Origin: a virus
DNA: 64,000 nt
Direction: 5' to 3' (one strand)
Virus record (IMG/VR): IMGVR_UViG_3300029787_004704
Location: 1-64,000 of that record
Under the pieces are notes generated by a model. It had not been told where the DNA came from. It saw only the letters and a program-made list of their open reading frames with translations, and ran no database searches. Shown one piece after another: positions 35,487-53,051 of this stretch. Both the position numbers and the translations under genes were made by a program. Each line of letters opens with the position of its first letter. Position 1 is the stretch's first letter.

Positions 35487-36030
35487 TTTTAGACCATTGA
35501 TATTTTATTTTGTCTTTGTCTTCAAATATGAAGGGAGTCTTAAGCCAAGCAATTCTTTCTTGTTCTGCTTCTTGACACAAATATTGTTTAGATTTGTCAG
35601 CACCACTAAAATATTCATATATGATCTGACCAAACCAGCCAAAGTGTGCATTGTTGTTCACGTGTATAACTTCTTGGTATTTTGTTTGTTCTGTTTGTGA
35701 TAAAGTTTGCCACCAATCTTGATTTATTTTTGGATCATAATAATTGTGCAATATATCTAGTTTGTATCCTTGTACTTCTATGCTGTTTATTTTTAGATAT
35801 CTGTGTTCACTTTCTTTGCCTCCATTATAATCTATACAAATAACATTCTTGCCACCATCAGGTACAGCATGTTCAAAACGCACCACTTCATTTGTTTTGT
35901 CTCCCGGTGAATATTCTTTTTGATGTACTGTGGTGTTGTTGAATTTTATAGTAATGGATGTGGGAGAAACATCATGGAAAATATCAAAATCAATTTTGTG
36001 ATTGTATATTAATTGGAAATTGCTGTGCAT
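35476..36030 (-). CDS. Hypothetical protein with carbohydrate-binding-like N-terminus
   Basis: 184 aa. Residues 20-90 have the strand order of a xylan-binding-type jelly roll: TSITIKFNNTTVHQKEY, RFEHAVPDGGKNVICIDYNG, HRYLKINSIEVQGYKLDIL. The rest is helical and charged (QDWWQTLSQTEQTKYQE). No enzyme motif. The likeness is by pattern only, so treat it as a guess. Overlaps the downstream and upstream genes at both ends. Confidence 0.4.
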   Translation of the reverse strand: MHSNFQLIYNHKIDFDIFHDVSPTSITIKFNNTTVHQKEYSPGDKTNEVVRFEHAVPDGGKNVICIDYNGGKESEHRYLKINSIEVQGYKLDILHNYYDPKINQDWWQTLSQTEQTKYQEVIHVNNNAHFGWFGQIIYEYFSGADKSKQYLCQEAEQERIAWLKTPFIFEDKDKIKYQWSKNEN

Positions 36031-36689
36031 TTGTTGTTAAGTTGTTCATAAGTCATCGTAGAAACATTGTCTAAATTTAAGATGTCACTAGGAATATTAC
36101 CTTCTACAAAAGTCCATTGTGTGTTTGGATTATCTTTGATAAATTTTGTAATTTGTCTACCCCATACTGTTTGGTGCACTATTGTTTCCGCACTGTCATA
36201 AGCATTGGTTCCAGTATACACATTTAAATTTGGACCATCTTCTGCACAATCAAAACCTAAACAGATCAAATTTGTATGTCCATCATGTATTGCAATATGC
36301 ATGGCGGTGGTGCCTGCTCCCATATGTGGATTCTCAGGTATCAAATGGCTACTACCTCCCAGTCTAGTCATATTGAAATGGTTGGTGTATACAATATTTT
36401 TTTCTAAGTATTCTGAATCTTTTATTTCTGTATACATTCTTCGGTCGACAACAATTAAAAAATCAGGTTCATAATCTCTGTGCAAAGCATTACAACCATA
36501 AGAGTCTTGCGGTAATTTGTATAGGTCAAATCCAATTCTTGATGGGCCGTTGCCTATGATGTAAGCATCTTTACCTGCAGGATCGTTGTTTACAGTTCGT
36601 GGCATGTATACACGCTCTTCAGTTTTCTTCCCACCCTTGATTATGATTTTGGCGATTATCTCTTCACCTTTGTATTCACTAAGTGCCAT
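36009..36689 (-). CDS. DUF115/MptE-like glycosyltransferase-type protein
   Basis: 226 aa. A nucleotide-binding-like turn DAYIIGNGPSRIGFDL is followed by SYGCNALHRDYEPDFLIVVD and the motif GAGTTAMHIAIHDGHTNLICLGFD. This layout is shared by DUF115-type motility accessory/sialyltransferase-like proteins and by the gene at 53311 in this window. It would handle a nucleotide-activated sugar. Start overlaps the peroxiredoxin stop as TAATG. Confidence 0.6.
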   Translation of the reverse strand: MALSEYKGEEIIAKIIIKGGKKTEERVYMPRTVNNDPAGKDAYIIGNGPSRIGFDLYKLPQDSYGCNALHRDYEPDFLIVVDRRMYTEIKDSEYLEKNIVYTNHFNMTRLGGSSHLIPENPHMGAGTTAMHIAIHDGHTNLICLGFDCAEDGPNLNVYTGTNAYDSAETIVHQTVWGRQITKFIKDNPNTQWTFVEGNIPSDILNLDNVSTMTYEQLNNKCTAISN

Positions 36690-37183
36690 TATAAATTTTT
36701 TAAAATATTTTCCGCTGTTGATTGGTCTATGTCTTTTTCGTCCACAAACATTGTTGTTACTTGGCCATCTTCAATTATTGCCGCAAAACGTTTACAACGA
36801 TTTCCCAGTACACCCATGTCTGTTGCTAATCCCATTTGTTCAGCAACTTCGCCAAATGGATCAGCGGCCATTGTTATCTCTGAGCCTTCATGATTCATAT
36901 AATCATCAAATGCAATCATCACATATGGATCATTCATACTCATACAGATAACTTCCTGTATTCCTTTTTTGTACAATGCTCTTTCATGCTTGATAAAACC
37001 AGGCATATGTTTTTCTGTACAACCTGGTGTAAATGCTCCGGGAATTCCAACCAGCACAACTTTGCGATCACCTATGTATTGATCTAGGTTGTGACCTTCA
37101 AATGGAGGGCCTTCTTCGTCGTGTGTTGGTATGAATACTTCTCCTGTTGGCATACCATAACTGTGAAATTCAAATAATGACAT
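36689..37183 (-). CDS. Second peroxiredoxin (Prx5-like)
   Basis: 164 aa. Peroxidatic Cys55 in IPGAFTPGCTEKHMPGF. Only limited likeness to the Prx at 2946, so this is a distinct gene rather than a recent copy. It lies inside the glycan cluster between a DUF115-like gene and a hypothetical. Would detoxify peroxides. Confidence 0.88.
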   Translation of the reverse strand: MSLFEFHSYGMPTGEVFIPTHDEEGPPFEGHNLDQYIGDRKVVLVGIPGAFTPGCTEKHMPGFIKHERALYKKGIQEVICMSMNDPYVMIAFDDYMNHEGSEITMAADPFGEVAEQMGLATDMGVLGNRCKRFAAIIEDGQVTTMFVDEKDIDQSTAENILKNL

Positions 37184-42290: not shown

Positions 42291-42832
42291 TCGTACACTC
42301 CTATTGAGGCAACCTGTTGATTAGCAGGACCAAGTATTTCTTCAACTGCTTGTTTGACTCCTGTTGCTCTGTGGAAAAAATCATGAAACAATATTTTTCC
42401 GTCTGAAAGAATGTGTATATTTTTGGTCAATAGTTTCATCCATTCATATGTGTGATTGGCATCAATAAAAATTAAGTCATAAAATTCAGGTAATGGTTTG
42501 TTGTTCAATTCCATCACATAGTTGATTGCATCGGCAGTAACATAATTGATATTGACGTCTACTTTTATATTTTGTTTTGTTTGTAAAATGTTTTCTTCAA
42601 ACACATCTAAAGTTGTGATTGAACCTTTATTTCCTGCGTCGTATTTTGCTTGAGCTATTATGCTTGTTGACAAACCGTGATAAGATCCTAGTTCCAAAAT
42701 GTTATGTGAATTATATGCACACTCATATAGATAATGTGCTTCTATAGGTTGCAACCAACCTTCTATATCTGATTTTATTACACCATTTTCAGTTGGCAAA
42801 TGCAACAGACTTTCGTGGTACTCATTTAACAT
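42287..42832 (-). CDS. Class I SAM methyltransferase
   Basis: 181 aa. NILELGSYHGLSTS near 45 is the SAM motif, with TTLDVFE, FYDLIFIDANHTYEWM and KILFHDFFH downstream. Pattern of Methyltransf_24-type enzymes that often act with sugar genes. Overlaps both neighbours, FkbM upstream and epimerase downstream. Confidence 0.75.
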   Translation of the reverse strand: MLNEYHESLLHLPTENGVIKSDIEGWLQPIEAHYLYECAYNSHNILELGSYHGLSTSIIAQAKYDAGNKGSITTLDVFEENILQTKQNIKVDVNINYVTADAINYVMELNNKPLPEFYDLIFIDANHTYEWMKLLTKNIHILSDGKILFHDFFHRATGVKQAVEEILGPANQQVASIGVYE

Positions 42833-43454
42833 AGATACAGTCTCTGGTCACTTTCACTGCTCTTTTGTATCCAAGTTCTACTAGCAAATCATGACTGTCG
42901 TTCTTTGTGTACCCGTATGCTTCTGAATTCAACACACATCGTTCTATTATGATCACAGGTGAACAACGCTCTAAAGTTTTCCTTGCTCCATTTAGAACAG
43001 GAATTTCAAGTCCTTCTACGTCTATCTTTAATACATCTATTGTGTCGTAGTTGTGTTCGTCCATTGTTTTCAACACAATGTCGCCTTCATCTCCTGGCCA
43101 CACTCTTGTAGATCCTAGATGTTGCTCGATTGCAACAGCAAGTTTGCCTTTGCCTGGTTTGTCTGCAAGGCCATATTCATGCAGTGTAATATTTGATTTG
43201 CTTTCAGTGTTGATTTTAAAACATTCAATATTGTAATCAGCAGGTTCAAATGCTGTAACTTGTTCGAAGATGTCAGCATAATAGTTTGCCCATCTTCCGA
43301 CATTACCGCCAACATCTATCATGTGCGATCTTCCTTGAGTCAGTTTCAATACTTGTTCATGAATTTTGTTGTCGTGTTCTTTGACATTGCCGCCTACGTG
43401 GTGGACTGGATCGTCACCATCTGGAATATAATAACCGTCTTCTAGAAGTTTCAT
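42822..43454 (-). CDS. FkbM-family methyltransferase (second copy)
   Basis: 210 aa. HMIDVGGNVGRWANYY near 45, AFEPADYN, and IDVLKIDVEGLEIPVLNGA match the family. Related to the gene at 199-810 but not a recent duplicate. Between two sugar-gene neighbours, so methylation of a sugar is the natural guess. Confidence 0.85.
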   Translation of the reverse strand: MKLLEDGYYIPDGDDPVHHVGGNVKEHDNKIHEQVLKLTQGRSHMIDVGGNVGRWANYYADIFEQVTAFEPADYNIECFKINTESKSNITLHEYGLADKPGKGKLAVAIEQHLGSTRVWPGDEGDIVLKTMDEHNYDTIDVLKIDVEGLEIPVLNGARKTLERCSPVIIIERCVLNSEAYGYTKNDSHDLLVELGYKRAVKVTRDCIYVK

Positions 43455-44173
43455 CTAAGTTTTGTATCCATCACATTTACTTTTGGTTCCCAACCTAAAG
43501 CTCTCAATTTCGATGATGGTAAAACATTAGATTCTAATTCAAAATCTTCTCCGTCTGTTACTGGCACGTCGAAGCCATTTTTTGCAACCAGTTGATCCAC
43601 TTTGAATGCAATTCCACAACCACATTCAAACACACCTTTTTCATCTGGATTGTCTATTATGGTTTGTATAGCATTCACAACATCTGCAACATTTATAAAA
43701 TCTCTAGTGTGTGTAGTTGCATATTTTACTATGCCCAATTTGATCTTTGATATCAGCATAGTGTCTCTTGCTCCATCTCCCCACACAGTTGAAAAACGTA
43801 ATCCAACTGATTTTTTAGGAGCCATAAATTCATCCACATACTTGGATAGTGCATATGGATTTCTATGCCATTCTAAACAAGCAGATGACGATGCGTAAAT
43901 TACTCTGATGTTGTGTTCATCACACTGCTCAAACACTTTCCTACATTTAACCACATTTTCGTTCCAATACAAATTAGGATTTTTAAAACTTTCTCGTATG
44001 TCTGCTTTGGCAGCTAGATGTATGCAAAGATCTGATTTAGGATCAATGTCAAAGTTGGCAATGTCTTTGTTGATTAACAAATCCCAACAGTCTACTGTAT
44101 GTCCATTTGCTTCTAAATGATTACGCAGATGTGTGCCAATAAAACCATGTGATCCTGTAAGTGTGATGTGCAT
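43451..44173 (-). CDS. NAD-dependent epimerase/dehydratase (short SDR)
   Basis: 240 aa. TGSHGFIGTHLRNHLE (GxxGxxG) begins the protein. SSSACLEW and NPYALSKYVDEF give the Ser and Tyr-x3-Lys catalytic pair, and FINVADVVNAIQTI is the typical late helix. Shorter than the other SDR at 41286, lacking part of the C-terminal domain. Would edit a nucleotide sugar. Confidence 0.8.
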   Translation of the reverse strand: MHITLTGSHGFIGTHLRNHLEANGHTVDCWDLLINKDIANFDIDPKSDLCIHLAAKADIRESFKNPNLYWNENVVKCRKVFEQCDEHNIRVIYASSSACLEWHRNPYALSKYVDEFMAPKKSVGLRFSTVWGDGARDTMLISKIKLGIVKYATTHTRDFINVADVVNAIQTIIDNPDEKGVFECGCGIAFKVDQLVAKNGFDVPVTDGEDFELESNVLPSSKLRALGWEPKVNVMDTKLR

Positions 44174-44177
44174 ACGT

Positions 44178-44810
44178 CTATATATAGAAGTTTCTGTTGG
44201 ACGTTAATGATTCTTGATTGTTCACTTTGACTGCTCTTGGAGTCACCACTTGTATGTTACAGTATAGATCTTTCACAAACATGTCAGCGGCAGTCAGACC
44301 TTCTTCATATGCTCCACGTATTAACCGTTCAGCAGTTTTTGGTTTGATTACGTATCCATAGGTGCCTTGTAATTGTTGTTGTCCTTTGCGATAATGTTCT
44401 AGTTTTTGTATGCTAGGTTCTTGTCCTAGATCAGGATCAGGCTCGACAAATCGGTGTTTGTCCAAATGTAGTAGTTCATCAAACGGTGTTTTGTATGAGT
44501 CTGATACCACAATAGAATCGTGTTCAAGTATGACCACTGTTTCATCTAGTTCAACACATTTTTTCCACATTTCCAAATGTGAAATCATGCATCCTCTGAC
44601 ACCACCTTTATTCCATTTTATTTTGTATAACTTTGGCCCGGGAAAATATGGTTGTAAATTTTCTCGTTTGATATATTCATCTGCACGTGAAGGTGTGTAC
44701 CCTTCAAACATCTCAGCGTCTAGGCCATGTGCTTTAGCACTGACCATTGCGTCAATAGCTGGTTGATGTGTGCTTTCAACTTCTCTTAAAAATAATACAA
44801 ACGCTTTCAT
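44178..44810 (-). CDS. GT25-like glycosyltransferase
   Basis: 210 aa. GVRGCMISHLEMWKKC and VVILEHDSIV are the GT25 (lipooligosaccharide galactosyltransferase-type) pattern, where the usual ExDD reads EHDS. GTYGYVIKPKTAERLI is a further typical segment. Adds a hexose to a glycan; acceptor unknown. Start overlaps the GIY-YIG gene by 4 nt. Confidence 0.75.
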   Translation of the reverse strand: MKAFVLFLREVESTHQPAIDAMVSAKAHGLDAEMFEGYTPSRADEYIKRENLQPYFPGPKLYKIKWNKGGVRGCMISHLEMWKKCVELDETVVILEHDSIVVSDSYKTPFDELLHLDKHRFVEPDPDLGQEPSIQKLEHYRKGQQQLQGTYGYVIKPKTAERLIRGAYEEGLTAADMFVKDLYCNIQVVTPRAVKVNNQESLTSNRNFYI

Positions 44811-47702: not shown

Positions 47703-48143
47703 TTAAAATTTTATTTTCTGCTTGGCAAACTGTTTGCCAAAACCACCGCCTTTTAGACCCTTTTTCTTGAACTCTTTTTCTTTGGCGTTTATCTGGTCAA
47801 TCATTTGTGCTATTAGTCCACGCACATATTTTGAATTAGGCTTGCCCCCTTGCACAATTTTGTCTGGTTCAACATTTAAGCCAAAACTTTTGATACCTGC
47901 TTTTTTAGCCACTCCTTCGGCCCAATCAGCAAAAAATGGAGCTATTGCTAGGTCTGGATTGTCGTTCAATGCTTTGTTTAATTTAGAGTTAAGATCGTTC
48001 AGCATGGTTTCCATGTCTTGTAGTTTTGCTGTAAGTGGAATAGGGCCTTTTAGCGAATCTGCGGCTTGCCCAATGCCTTGTGCGGCAGTGCCTAACGCGG
48101 CACCAACTTTGGGGTCATATTCAAATAGGTCTAAAAGTTTCAT
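47703..48143 (-). CDS. Hypothetical protein with Gly/Lys-rich tail (146 aa)
   Basis: 146 aa. An Ala/Gly-rich start GAALGTAAQGIGQAADSLKG, a helical middle (LQDMETMLNDLNSKLN) and a basic Gly-rich tail (KKKGLKGGGFGKQFAKQ). It lies 5 nt after a TATAAATA box. It follows the gp26-like gene and is likely a late protein, possibly structural. Confidence 0.5.
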   Translation of the reverse strand: MKLLDLFEYDPKVGAALGTAAQGIGQAADSLKGPIPLTAKLQDMETMLNDLNSKLNKALNDNPDLAIAPFFADWAEGVAKKAGIKSFGLNVEPDKIVQGGKPNSKYVRGLIAQMIDQINAKEKEFKKKGLKGGGFGKQFAKQKIKF

Positions 48144-48148
48144 ATCAA

Positions 48149-48156
48149 TATTTATA
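48149..48156 (-). promoter_or_regulatory. T4-late-type promoter TATAAATA
   Basis: TATAAATA on the minus strand, 5 nt before the ATG of 47703-48143. It also overlaps the stop codon of the frameshift extension at 48152-48154, so the two genes are packed end to promoter. Confidence 0.6.
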
Positions 48157-48382
48157 GTAAAGGCAGTTTAGTGTTCTTTGTGTTCTCTATGTTCTGTTTT
48201 ACAAGTTCAGCCATCATGGATCTGTCTTCAGGCCCTAGCAAAAATGCTGTGTTGTAATCCAACGACCCACGCATGTACCAACACAATTTAATAAGTTCAT
48301 CCTTTAAATTTTTGTTTGTGTTTTCAAGTTCTTTAAAATATTCTTCAAGTTCAGAAGGCGAGAGAGTTAGGATCTTGATACG
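48152..48382 (-). CDS. Frameshift extension of the gp26-like gene (76 aa in the -1 frame)
   Basis: An open frame of 76 codons reached only if ribosomes slip -1 at the heptamer 48382-48388; no ATG, GTG or TTG opens it, and an in-frame stop lies just upstream. It begins RIKILTLSPSELEEYFKEL, continues with the conserved-looking LIKLCWYMRGSLDYNTAFLL and ends EDRSMMAELVKQNIE with a short tail. The pattern of WYMRG with a following EDR resembles small proteins near gp26 in marine T4-like phages. The fusion with gp26 would be about 359 aa. Confidence 0.6.
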   Translation of the reverse strand, partial: RIKILTLSPSELEEYFKELENTNKNLKDELIKLCWYMRGSLDYNTAFLLGPEDRSMMAELVKQNIENTKNTKLPLL

Positions 48383-49230
48383 AAAAAATTGGAGTTATCC
48401 ATTGATATAGGAGCGTCAAACGACGCTGGAGCACCTTTTTCTATTTGTTCCTTTGTTGGTGTAATAGTAATAGGTTTAATTCTGCCTAAATCTTTTTGTA
48501 CATCTAATCTTTTTTTAATTTTGTCGGCAGTGGCACCATCCATGTTGTCCACAAATTCTTCAATGTAAACACGATCAGTGATAGTTTGTCCATCAGCTGT
48601 GACCTCCAAAATAGATTCTTTCATGTTAGCCAAAGTTAAGTTGGTCATATGGCCAAATATTTCAGCAAATTTTTCCTGTTTTTGTGATGCATTTAATTCA
48701 TTGGTATCAATGACTTGTGTTATAATTCTTTGTTGTTCAAAGGTGCGTAATTGTAAGTTTGTGAGTTGACGATAACTCATTGGCTTTATTTTGAAAGACA
48801 CTTTGTCTGCAGGCACATATCCATCAAATGGTGTCTTGTCAATTTTATCTCCTGCTGTACGCAAATCAACATTGTAGACTACTTTGTCTTCTGTGTTGGG
48901 AATAGTCACATTGATATCCATCATGTGGCCATAAGTTGCAATACGTATAGCAATCATTATGGAGTCTAAATCTAACACCGGCATCATCCATGGATCTTTG
49001 ATTCCTGGCACACATGAACGTATGACATTTATTGTTGATTCTCCGTTTAACAGTGCGTCTGGTGTATTCATGGTCATTTCATCTTTAGCAGTCATAGGAT
49101 ATACTGCAAGTTCTTTTTCGTTGTCAAATACTAAAGCTCCTTCAGGATACCAATCACCATTAGATGGCAGAGTTGTGTATATTGCTGGTTGCCTAAAGAA
49201 CTTTGCTAAAGGGTTTTGTGAAGTTGTCAT
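48367..49230 (-). CDS. 26: Baseplate hub/tail assembly protein, T4 gp26-like
   Basis: 287 aa. Sequence features of the gp26-like family: NPLAKFFRQPAIYTTLPSNG at the start, YPMTAKDEMTMNTPDALLNG, and SCVPGIKDPWMMPVLDLDSIM. In T4, gp26 works with gp51 and others in baseplate hub assembly. The last codons AAT TTT TTC contain a slippery heptamer, after which a -1 frame stays open for 76 codons. This gives two products, like tail assembly chaperones. It is divergent from the tape-measure-like gene at 49281, with an A/T-rich TATAAATT directly before its ATG. Confidence 0.7.
   Translation of the reverse strand: MTTSQNPLAKFFRQPAIYTTLPSNGDWYPEGALVFDNEKELAVYPMTAKDEMTMNTPDALLNGESTINVIRSCVPGIKDPWMMPVLDLDSIMIAIRIATYGHMMDINVTIPNTEDKVVYNVDLRTAGDKIDKTPFDGYVPADKVSFKIKPMSYRQLTNLQLRTFEQQRIITQVIDTNELNASQKQEKFAEIFGHMTNLTLANMKESILEVTADGQTITDRVYIEEFVDNMDGATADKIKKRLDVQKDLGRIKPITITPTKEQIEKGAPASFDAPISMDNSNFFVSRS
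48382..48388 (-). other. Slippery heptamer T TTT TTC
   Basis: Reading on the minus strand, frame 0 is AAT TTT TTC GTA, so the heptamer has the canonical X XXY YYZ form. Both tRNAs could re-pair after a -1 slip (Phe on TTT). The normal frame ends four codons later, and the -1 frame stays open for 76 codons. Confidence 0.6.
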
Positions 49231-49242
49231 AATTTATAGTCC

Positions 49243-49250
49243 ATAAATAC
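49243..49250 (+). promoter_or_regulatory. Late-type promoter ATAAATAC
   Basis: ATAAATAC, 30 nt before the ATG of the large protein at 49281, in the short divergent gap from the gp26-like gene. Confidence 0.6.
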
Positions 49251-49280
49251 TTACTATAACAATATTTATGTACGTATAAA

Positions 49281-51290
49281 ATGGCTAGTTTTAAAGAGGT
49301 TGATATAGAAGGTGTTCAGGTAAAGGTTCCTCAAGATGGTTTTGCATCTGAAGAAACTCTACAAGAATTGGTAAAAGCACTGGGTGGGCGTAGTGCCGCC
49401 AGTGGTGGTACCGGTGGAGCCAAAGCACTGGCCGGAGCCACAAAAGGAGCAGGCAAAGACGTAAAAGCATTTGGTAAATCTTTGTTCAAAATGAATCCTG
49501 CCCTTAATGCCTTGGAAACAGGATTTAATCTGTTGGGATCTGCTATCACAGGGGCAACTGGTTTAGTAAAGTCAATGGCAACAGCCGATGGTTCGTTTCA
49601 ATCTCTAGGTGCTGTGGTAGATTTTTCAACTGCCCAAATCACAAAATTTACTAATATGATTCCTATATTTGGAGGATTTTTTACAGCCGTGGCAGAATCT
49701 TCGGCCGAGATGGTGAAACTTAAATTGGCATTTATGGATCTCCAAAGAGACACATTCCAGGGTCTGTCTGAAGCAGGTTTTAGATTGAATGGAAATTTAG
49801 GTGATACCTTAACCACAGTTTTAGCGGCGAATATCAGTTTGGATCAGTTTGGAAATATAGTTGGTGAAAACACTGATGGTTTGAGAATATTTGGTGGTAC
49901 AATTAATAATGCCGCAGACCAATTTGCAAACAGATTAGGAAGGCTAACTGATCAAGGATCAGATGTGGGTATGGGATTGCGTCTGCTAGGATTAAATTCA
50001 ACAGCTATTGCTGAAGAATTTGCCGACTTTGTTACAACAAACAGATTGAATGCATCTTTAATGACTGGCAATGAACGGCAGTTGAATGATCAGTTGCTTA
50101 AACGTACTAAGAATGAAAGAATAATAACTGAATTGTCTGGCAAGAGCATCAAAGAACAACGTGCGGCACAAATGGCAGCTGTGGCTGATTCTGCCTTCCA
50201 GGCCGCTTTGGTAGGCATGGGAGAACAGGGAGCAGAATTGACCACATTTGTGGCAGGATTGCCAGGACCAATAGGTGATGCTGTGAAACAGATTATTGCA
50301 TTCGGCACAGTGACTGATGAACAGTCAGCAAGACTGATAGCAACTATACCAGGGTTAAGAGAAACTCTTGAAAATAATATTGAAGGCATCAAAAGCGGAA
50401 ATATAAGTTCAAGCAAAGCAGTGGCAGACACAATCCAATTGGGGCAGAATGCAATTGAAGACGGCAACGGTTTGTTCTTGGCAAAAATATCCATGATTGA
50501 TCCTGCCTTTGCCGCAGTTGCTGATTTTATCATGCAAGGAAGAGCGTCGGCAATACAACTTGAAAATATCAACGATGTGTTAGGTACTTCGTTCACTGAG
50601 CTTGGTCAGGCACAAGAAGAGTTTAATGCACAACATGATGAACAACTTAAGATAGCAGAGGATCTAGCCAAACAGGGCAAATTGAACGAAGAAAATCTTA
50701 GAGCGGCAGGCATGGATGATAAAACGATCGGTATATTGTTAAATGCTGTAAAAGTAGAAGATGCTGTGGGGACGTTCCAAGCAGGATTATTCCAAACAAC
50801 AAATAATCTTGGTCTGTTGGATGACGGAATTACTGGATTGATTGATACTTTAAACAAGATGCTTAGAATGATTGATCCTAATTACGTAAACCCTAACGAA
50901 TTAGCCAGACGAACAAAGGAAGTGGCAGAAAAGGGCGGAGATCAATTATTTGATCCGCTACCAGGTATGGTGTCACCTCTAGAAACAGATTTTAGAAAAG
51001 CAAGATTTGGAGGAGACATACAACAGCAAACAGAGGCATTGGTCGCTGAGGTAGGAATAAAGACAGTTGAGGCCGCAGTACAAGGCGGAAGTATGAACGC
51101 TGACGAGGTTAGGGAGTACAAGGATAATATGAAGGTCTTTGACCGTGAGTATGATGAGGATGGCAAGGTTATAACAAACGGATCTGGACCAAACATGCAA
51201 ACAACTAATGACATATTGATTGATATCAATAAAAATATCAAAAAAAACAATACAGAAATCCACGGAGGCCTACTAAACACCAAGAATTAA
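49281..51290 (+). CDS. Large virion protein, possibly tape measure or structural
   Basis: 669 aa, Ala/Gly-rich and helical. Residues 40-180 hold hydrophobic stretches (NALETGFNLLGSAITGATG, MIPIFGGFFTAVAESSAEMV) and the rest is a long amphipathic, repeat-poor helical part ending in charged linker segments. Tape measure proteins have this style, and it is next to the gp26-like gene. T4's tape measure gp29 is of similar size, but I cannot show homology. A generic late structural protein is the safer reading. Confidence 0.45.
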   Translation: MASFKEVDIEGVQVKVPQDGFASEETLQELVKALGGRSAASGGTGGAKALAGATKGAGKDVKAFGKSLFKMNPALNALETGFNLLGSAITGATGLVKSMATADGSFQSLGAVVDFSTAQITKFTNMIPIFGGFFTAVAESSAEMVKLKLAFMDLQRDTFQGLSEAGFRLNGNLGDTLTTVLAANISLDQFGNIVGENTDGLRIFGGTINNAADQFANRLGRLTDQGSDVGMGLRLLGLNSTAIAEEFADFVTTNRLNASLMTGNERQLNDQLLKRTKNERIITELSGKSIKEQRAAQMAAVADSAFQAALVGMGEQGAELTTFVAGLPGPIGDAVKQIIAFGTVTDEQSARLIATIPGLRETLENNIEGIKSGNISSSKAVADTIQLGQNAIEDGNGLFLAKISMIDPAFAAVADFIMQGRASAIQLENINDVLGTSFTELGQAQEEFNAQHDEQLKIAEDLAKQGKLNEENLRAAGMDDKTIGILLNAVKVEDAVGTFQAGLFQTTNNLGLLDDGITGLIDTLNKMLRMIDPNYVNPNELARRTKEVAEKGGDQLFDPLPGMVSPLETDFRKARFGGDIQQQTEALVAEVGIKTVEAAVQGGSMNADEVREYKDNMKVFDREYDEDGKVITNGSGPNMQTTNDILIDINKNIKKNNTEIHGGLLNTKN

Positions 51291-51335: not shown

Positions 51336-53051
51336 ATGGCATGGAAAAAATATTTTAATCTTGTACAACCAGACGGTTCAATGTCGCCAGTAAGTGGCAC
51401 CAATACTGCCAATGGTGGTGCAATGATGGGCAAGAGAAACTACACTTCATATCTACCAGAAGTGTACACAGGACATCCAAACAGACAAGAACGTTACTAT
51501 CAATATGATTCAATGGATCAAGATTCAGAAGTAAATGCGGCATTGGATATCATTGCAGAATTCTGCACACAGAATAACGAAAAAACAAAAACACCTTTCA
51601 CTATACAGTACAAAACAGAGCCAACAGAATCAGAAGCAATGATTTTGAATGATGCAATCAAGCAATTCACATCATTGAATGATTGGAGCAGAAGAATGTT
51701 CCGTATGTTCCGAAACACATTAAAGTATGGTGATTCATTTTTTATTAGAGATCCTGAAACACAACAATTGATTCATGTGGCGGCTACAAAATGTGAAAAA
51801 ATTATTGTGAATGAATCCAAAGGCAAAACACCTGAACAGTATGTGTTCAAAGATTTAAACTTAAATCTAGAATCATTGTCAGCATCGCAAGTAGCGGCCA
51901 ATGTAACATATTCTTCACCGGGTGCTTCTGCTATTATTGATCAAGGATATGGCAAGTCAGGTGGAGCATATTCAGGACCAGGCACATATGGCACAGGCGG
52001 TTCAGGCAGATTCGAAAGCACACAGAATCAATATGCAATTGATGCCAATCATGTTACTCATATGAGCATGTCAGAAGGACTTGATGCAAACTTCCCATTT
52101 GGTACATCCATACTGGAAACTGTGTTCAAAACATTCAAGCAGAAAGAAATGCTGGAAGATGCTATCATCATATACAGAGTACACAGAGCACCTGAACGTA
52201 GAGTGTTTTATATTGATGTAGGCAACATGCCAACACATATGGCCATGGGTTTTGTTGAAAGAGTCAAAAATGAAATTCACCAAAGACGTATTCCATCTGT
52301 GAGCGGTGGACAGAATTCAGTGGATGCAACATACAATCCGTTAAGCATAAACGAAGATTATTTCTTCCCACAAACAGCAGAAGGTAGAGGCTCTAAAGTG
52401 GAAACATTGCCAGGTGGCACAAACCTAGGTGAAATTGATGACTTAAGATACTTTACTAATAAACTGTATCGTGCTTTGAGGATTCCAAGTGCTTATTTGC
52501 CCACAGGCCCAGATGATGGTGCCAACCCACAATACTCAGATGGTAGAGTAGGCACAGCATATATTCAAGAATTAAGATTCAACAAGTATTGTGAAAGATT
52601 GCAGGACATTGTTATTCCGCCAATCAATCATGAGTTCAAGTTGTTCCTTAAACAAAGAGGCATTAACATAGACACATCATTGTTTGATGTAAAACTTACA
52701 CCACCACAAAACTTTGCCGCATACAGACAGATTGAACTAGACAATCAACGTGTACAAGCATTCACACAGATAGAGCAAGTACCATATTTGAGTAAAAGAT
52801 TTGCTTTACAAAGATTCTTAGGATTGAGTGAACAAGAACTTGCTAAAAATATGGAGATGTGGGCAGAAGAAAAAGGCGAATCAATGGACAATGCTGTCAA
52901 AGGTGAAGATCTACGTAATGTAGGAGTCACTGGCGGCGATCTTAACACAGACATATCAGATCAAACTCAACCCGATGAAGCACCAGAAGGTCCAGGACCA
53001 GGCGAAGAAGGTGGCGAACTCGAAGCTGGCGATGATGATATTGAGATCTAG
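51336..53051 (+). CDS. 20: Portal vertex protein gp20
   Basis: 571 aa, close to T4's 524. Conserved portal segments are present: RYYQYDSMDQDSEVNAALD, TPFTIQYKTEPTE, FFIRDPETQQLIHV, YRVHRAPERRVFYIDVGNMP, QRRIPSVSGGQNSVDATYNP, and SAYLPTGPDDGANPQYSDG. The C-terminal end is acidic and Gly-rich. It forms the dodecameric DNA entry ring of the capsid. Start of the T4-order capsid block. Confidence 0.96.
   Translation: MAWKKYFNLVQPDGSMSPVSGTNTANGGAMMGKRNYTSYLPEVYTGHPNRQERYYQYDSMDQDSEVNAALDIIAEFCTQNNEKTKTPFTIQYKTEPTESEAMILNDAIKQFTSLNDWSRRMFRMFRNTLKYGDSFFIRDPETQQLIHVAATKCEKIIVNESKGKTPEQYVFKDLNLNLESLSASQVAANVTYSSPGASAIIDQGYGKSGGAYSGPGTYGTGGSGRFESTQNQYAIDANHVTHMSMSEGLDANFPFGTSILETVFKTFKQKEMLEDAIIIYRVHRAPERRVFYIDVGNMPTHMAMGFVERVKNEIHQRRIPSVSGGQNSVDATYNPLSINEDYFFPQTAEGRGSKVETLPGGTNLGEIDDLRYFTNKLYRALRIPSAYLPTGPDDGANPQYSDGRVGTAYIQELRFNKYCERLQDIVIPPINHEFKLFLKQRGINIDTSLFDVKLTPPQNFAAYRQIELDNQRVQAFTQIEQVPYLSKRFALQRFLGLSEQELAKNMEMWAEEKGESMDNAVKGEDLRNVGVTGGDLNTDISDQTQPDEAPEGPGPGEEGGELEAGDDDIEI

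Follow-up and report, generated by a model that had tools for sequence, protein, structure and literature searches.

Does the gp26-like gene of this virus yield one protein, or a short and a long form through a change of reading frame near its 3' end? The initial annotation of the window (the whole stretch of 64,000 nucleotides analysed here) had proposed a programmed −1 frameshift following the G/GT logic of lambda-like phages, and our analysis supports this proposal: the heptamer and its phase are conserved, and the −1 frame is open and selected. Further support comes from three clusters of relatives that are startless in the −1 frame and from downstream RNA stems in many relatives. We hold it to be very likely that this is a lambda G/GT-type tail-assembly chaperone (TAC) gene using programmed −1 frameshifting, and the locus is best explained as the TAC gene of a marine T4-superfamily myophage.

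The gene is called as an ORF of 287 aa (48367..49230, minus strand; the short form, TAC-N), whose last codons in frame 0 are AAC TCC AAT TTT TTC GTA TCA AGA TCC TAA, giving the C-terminus N F F V S R S. The slippery heptamer T TTT TTC lies at 48382..48388 on the same strand in the phase X XXY YYZ, with the 0-frame stop TAA (48367..48369) four codons past it; the sequence bears out both the coordinates and the phase first noted. The −1 frame was likewise seen as described: upstream of the slip, a TAA is followed by two sense codons (CTC CAA) and then by the slip's TTT TTT, and downstream the frame stays open for 76 codons (48155..48382, minus strand; TAC-C, gp51-like) up to a TAA at 48152..48154. 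Translated from the C of TTC, this extension reads RIKILTLSPSELEEYFKELENTNKNLKDELIKLCWYMRGSLDYNTAFLLGPEDRSMMAELVKQNIENTKNTKLPLL, with the landmarks RIKIL, WYMRGS, PEDRSMM and KLPLL in that order. The predicted frameshift fusion (TAC-NC; 48155..49230, minus strand) would join 283 aa of frame 0 to 76 aa of frame −1, which agrees with the earlier estimate of about 359 aa, and its junction would run from DNSNFF directly into RIKIL. The statement that no start codon precedes Met37 of the extension needs correction: a TTG stands at extension codon 33 (the L of IKLCW), but there is none ahead of the conserved N-terminal part.

As a chance comparison within the window, we took the 73 non-shadow ORFs of at least 100 aa. 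Only two, the chaperone ORF included, combine an in-frame XXXYYYZ at most 20 codons from the stop with a −1 ORF of 40 or more codons behind it, and the second (36688-37183, minus strand) probably does no more than overlap the gene that follows (36009-36689). At its 3' end, this second ORF carries the overlapping slippery-like motifs TTTAAAA, AAAAAAT and AAATTTA, with a −1 frame of 227-229 codons. Directly past the chaperone extension lies an ORF of 146 aa (47703-48143; MKLLDLFEYDPKVG...) with no family match; a start resembling its own (MKL.DLFE.DPK) is also present in the related loci L001, L002 and L004.

Conservation of the heptamer and of the −1 frame

Relatives were drawn from IMG/VR scans and annotated phage genomes, and all 110 related loci analysed have T TTT TTC in the same phase near the 3' end of the gene. 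The count is not circular, because the loci were picked for resembling the gp26-like protein or the extension, with no regard to the heptamer. These 110 loci are not independent, and the fairer count is the 51 clusters formed below 70% identity, between which identity ranges from 21 to 70% (median 33%). Among the carriers of the heptamer are the jumbo phages 121Q, CBB, Munch, XbC2, PA5oct, Atu_ph07, Phosso and Vibrio 2.275.O. The distance from the heptamer start to the 0-frame stop varies from 10 to 43 nt across the 110 loci, and the residue ahead of the heptamer is variable (N, S, H, R, T, D or Y), yet its codon always ends in T. FF pairs elsewhere in the same genes are mostly written TTC TTT or TTT TTT. 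Under independent codon choice in the 51 clusters, the probability would be about 1e-34 for TTT TTC and about 1e-14 for the preceding T; these values ignore shared ancestry and serve as a guide only, though the genes have a median identity of 33%.

The alignment across relatives suggested in the initial annotation thus returns an invariant heptamer, and with it an open −1 frame under constraint. A −1 ORF is present in every cluster, with 70-96 codons and exactly 76 in 33/51, and in this frame the extension has a median dN/dS of 0.13 (226 pairs examined), compared with pN/pS of 1.45 and 1.71 for the same DNA in the other two frames. Judged by these substitution patterns, purifying selection acts on the −1 frame, which evolves as protein. 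Right after the slip comes the pattern R-x-R-L-L (R in 46/51, L in 47/51 and L in 43/51 clusters), and past it the extension carries WYMRGG and ER motifs. Since residues are conserved straight after the slip, coding begins with the slip itself rather than with a Met further along. One sublineage (L071, L089-L091, L094, L101 and L110) has SVWG..DPETIW in place of WYMRGG and keeps the heptamer.

RNA around the slip site and rival explanations

A stable stem roughly 6 nt past the heptamer occurs in about half of the clusters. For the 80 nt from +11, the median folding z across clusters is −2.09; windows upstream range from −0.25 to +0.18, and those at +60 and +120 lie at about −0.2. The 5' arm of the stems starts mostly from about +13, equivalent to a 6-nt spacer, while the position of the 3' arm depends on the lineage (around +49, or +80 to +83). 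The arms differ in sequence between clusters yet are complementary, as in L084 (GGCTTTTGAC/GTCAAAAGCC), L112 (GCCTCTTAAC/GTTAAGAGGC) and L012 (GGCTCTTGTC/GGCAAGAGCC); covariation in the single register +80 is modest, with 10 clusters against 3.7 expected by swapping. Neither the window nor L001, its nearest relative, has a clear stimulatory RNA structure (z about −0.7 to +1.5); L002 and L004 do have structure, with z of −2.1 to −2.6 at 80-120 nt. A search for a Shine-Dalgarno-like stimulator upstream of the slip came out negative (2/51 clusters, against a background of about 7%).

Could the downstream frame be a separate, small gp51-like gene that is translated through coupling or has a start codon of its own, with the heptamer incidental? 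Annotators do call distinct ORFs, and in several relatives an ATG overlaps or adjoins the 0-frame stop (ATGA in Atu_ph07 and Phosso, TAATG in 121Q and KVP40). Relatives with their own downstream start, which the initial annotation had named as evidence against a frameshift, therefore exist (Phosso and 121Q, for example), but not in the window's own lineage. Because an ATG, GTG or TTG occurs within the first 20 extension codons in 37/51 clusters, a separately started short protein may be made there in addition. The first 20 codons of the remaining 14/51 clusters, the window's among them, contain none of the three, and in three clusters, PA5oct (L015), L046 and L048, they are absent from the whole extension. 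Several observations speak against a separate gene: in these three and in the window, no start that could serve lies ahead of or inside the conserved first part; the residues immediately past the slip are conserved; heptamer sequence and phase are invariant in 51 clusters; and many relatives have the RNA stem at frameshift spacing. We consider this explanation improbable.

The same fusion would result from one base added by RNA polymerase slipping on the T6 run, with no ribosomal frameshifting involved, and every site does have a homopolymer run, of seven T in some T4-like phages. Six T, as found here, is generally considered short for transcriptional slippage, and the preserved X XXY YYZ phase and the RNA stems about 6 nt downstream argue for the ribosome; polymerase slippage is thus very unlikely. 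An indel from sequencing or assembly, finally, could split one continuous gene, homopolymer indels being common errors. The same arrangement recurs in 110 loci, finished isolate genomes included, which rules out sequencing error and leaves an artefact with practically no chance of being the explanation.

How would programmed frameshifting, the preferred reading, work at this site? Most ribosomes would stay in frame 0 across the slip site, producing the 287-aa gp26-like short form. A smaller share would slip backwards by a single base at T TTT TTC, the tRNAs on TTT and TTC re-pairing with TTT and TTT, and would produce the 359-aa form with its helical C-terminal domain, a putative gp51 equivalent. 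If lambda gpG/gpGT is a guide, the tape-measure protein (probably the 669-aa product of the neighbouring gene) would be coated by numerous copies of the short form and a few of the long, and the C-terminal domain would recruit the tail-tube protein. We infer the slipping and its rate, the chaperone action of both products, and the partner of each domain.

The chaperone family, the wider T4 group and prior work

The short form matches the Pfam family PF12322 (T4_baseplate) with E 3.9e-10 and 40.2 bits (curated cut-off 24.5) and phrog_150 ('baseplate hub') with E 2.1e-13; PF12322 is matched at E <= 0.001 by 50/51 cluster representatives. Its AlphaFold model (pLDDT 93.7) finds T4-like baseplate hub assembly proteins, themselves predicted structures, in Foldseek with E down to 1.7e-21. 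A model of 48382-49230 also finds uncharacterised proteins of the jumbo phages RSF1, RP12, phiRSL1, Special G and Eowyn; going by these predicted folds, their chaperones may be related to the gp26-like gene. The extension is modelled confidently as well (pLDDT 92.1; helices 9-36, 43-47 and 51-71), the AlphaFold input alignments having left out three rows from annotated phage records. Among solved structures, a sequence search returned none that is related, its top matches being designed or unrelated proteins that we take as chance, and a fold search gave no match with E below 1. Against a viral library, the extension fold has weak matches (E >= 0.01); those with named chaperones (phages Moogle, ZZ1 and BonaeVitae; E 2.8-4.6) are suggestive only.

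What links the extension to gp51? By hhalign, it matches the T4 gp51 C-terminus weakly (E 0.15, probability 0.4%) and a gp51-like set modestly (E 0.0012, probability 19.5%), and this set in turn matches T4 gp51 with E 8.6e-5. None of the 51 extensions matches phrog_634, the C-terminal domain of T4 gp51. An alignment with T4 gp26/gp51 was too diverse for scanning, so subset alignments were used. In the wider T4 group, the gp26 gene ends in T TTT TTC followed by a gp51-like frame in P-SSM2, S-PM2, KVP40 and phiW-14, and in T TTT TTT followed by such a frame in HTVC008M, phiM12, Cr30 and RAS14. T4 itself has two PF12322/phrog_150 genes, 26 and 51, of which gp51 is the longer, and at the slip position gene 26 reads a non-slippery TTC TTT. 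As far as these sequences tell, T4 has separate genes where the frameshift is absent, and Campylobacter phage CP81 seems to have two genes as well.

The window thus shares with T4-like chaperones (gp26/gp51) the PF12322/phrog_150 family, a 3' poly-T slip site and the short/long logic. T4 itself has two genes; the window falls in a separate lineage, alongside Rak2-like and other jumbo phages; its extension is longer and of another type (WYMRGG), and the tape-measure-like neighbour is divergent. Lambda G/GT is alike in having short and long forms with a common N-terminal part, a −1 slip near the 3' end and an adjoining tape-measure-like gene; no sequence relationship to it is shown, and the window's neighbour is transcribed divergently. 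The TAC of Vandenendeviridae/Andersonviridae myophages (phage Adele, PMC12846349) likewise has a poly-T slip near the end of TAC-N and a conserved −1 frame, but its motif is GTTTTT, not T TTT TTC, and its family is different.

The frameshifting of lambda G/GT is textbook knowledge, and the abstract by Vladimirov and colleagues reportedly states that frameshifting is conserved in several T4-like groups. A 2016 review of the lambda-type G/GT logic made an exception of T4 (PMC5009743). Vladimirov, Gautam and Davidson 2022 (Virology 566:9-15, pmid 34826709) reportedly identified T4-like tail assembly chaperones; in passages of the PRFect papers (PMC10885494, PMC10274946) that work is cited for the presence, in some T4-like phages, of separate short and long genes and no frameshifting, and in a passage of the phage Adele paper (PMC12846349) for T4-like TAC-N genes with poly-T slip sites. 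Since T4-like chaperones and poly-T slip sites were reported there, to go by these passages, the mechanism was already known in the PF12322 family, and the suggestion that the frameshift might be undescribed or overlooked is weakened. The papers on the RaK2, CBB and Atu_ph07 genomes make no mention of a frameshift in their text, and none of eight annotated isolate records of the jumbo-phage group has a joined gene at the slip site. There the extension stands as an ORF of its own, in most cases truncated; the Atu_ph07, CBB and Munch annotations begin it at an internal start, and that of PA5oct, where it is startless (L015:3852-4070), omits it. With the fused long form unannotated, a junction peptide could not be found in proteomic searches against these eight records.

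What is new here, by sequence comparison, is a clade-wide set of frameshifted chaperone genes whose mechanism was already known and whose product and function are predicted. The chances seem to us evenly balanced that −1 frameshifting, in many cases aided by a stem about 6 nt downstream, yields the chaperone pair in a whole superclade of Rak2-like, PA5oct-like and Atu_ph07/Phosso-like phages, along with abundant uncultured relatives, from a gene divergent from the tape measure, and that the separate genes 26 and 51 of T4 are derived, the frameshift having been lost by gene duplication. The culturable phages 121Q, CBB, PA5oct and Atu_ph07 offer a ready set for tail-length control in giant myophages, with T4, which meets the same problem with two genes, as a natural comparison.

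The neighbouring genes

A chaperone gene usually, though not by strict definition, lies beside the tape measure gene, and T4 gene 26 is opposite in strand to gene 29. In the window, a 669-aa ORF (49281..51290, plus strand) lies between the chaperone gene and the portal gene gp20 (51336..53051, plus strand; PF07230, E 3.2e-104). The initial annotation had called it tape-measure-like. The finding of a long ORF upstream of the chaperone gene and divergent from it in 44/48 clusters fits this without proving it; the 669-aa ORF matches no Pfam or PHROG family and showed nothing in a direct comparison with T4 gp29. By phmmer, the divergent ORF is homologous to it in 11 clusters besides the window's own. 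In 121Q, CBB, PA5oct, Munch and XbC2, the divergent ORF has the chaperone gene on one side and the portal gene on the other; annotations that give it a name call it a structural protein. The 669-aa ORF is the best candidate for a tape measure here; the Atu_ph07 paper assigns the tape measure of that phage to another gene, gp701.

The pair of chaperone and tape-measure-like genes (48367-51290) is divergent throughout the group and co-directional in lambda; in P-SSM2 and KVP40, gp26 is co-directional with the next large gene, unlike in the window's group. The 107.9-kb virus record also encodes a portal, head protease, major head protein, tail sheath, tail tube and terminase. Its tail sheath, encoded outside the window (L166:10655-14098), is 1147 aa long, much above the length in T4, which suggests large inserted domains. 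Within the window, 42822-44810 holds a run of ORFs that, by eye only, look like enzymes (methyltransferase-, epimerase- and glycosyltransferase-like).
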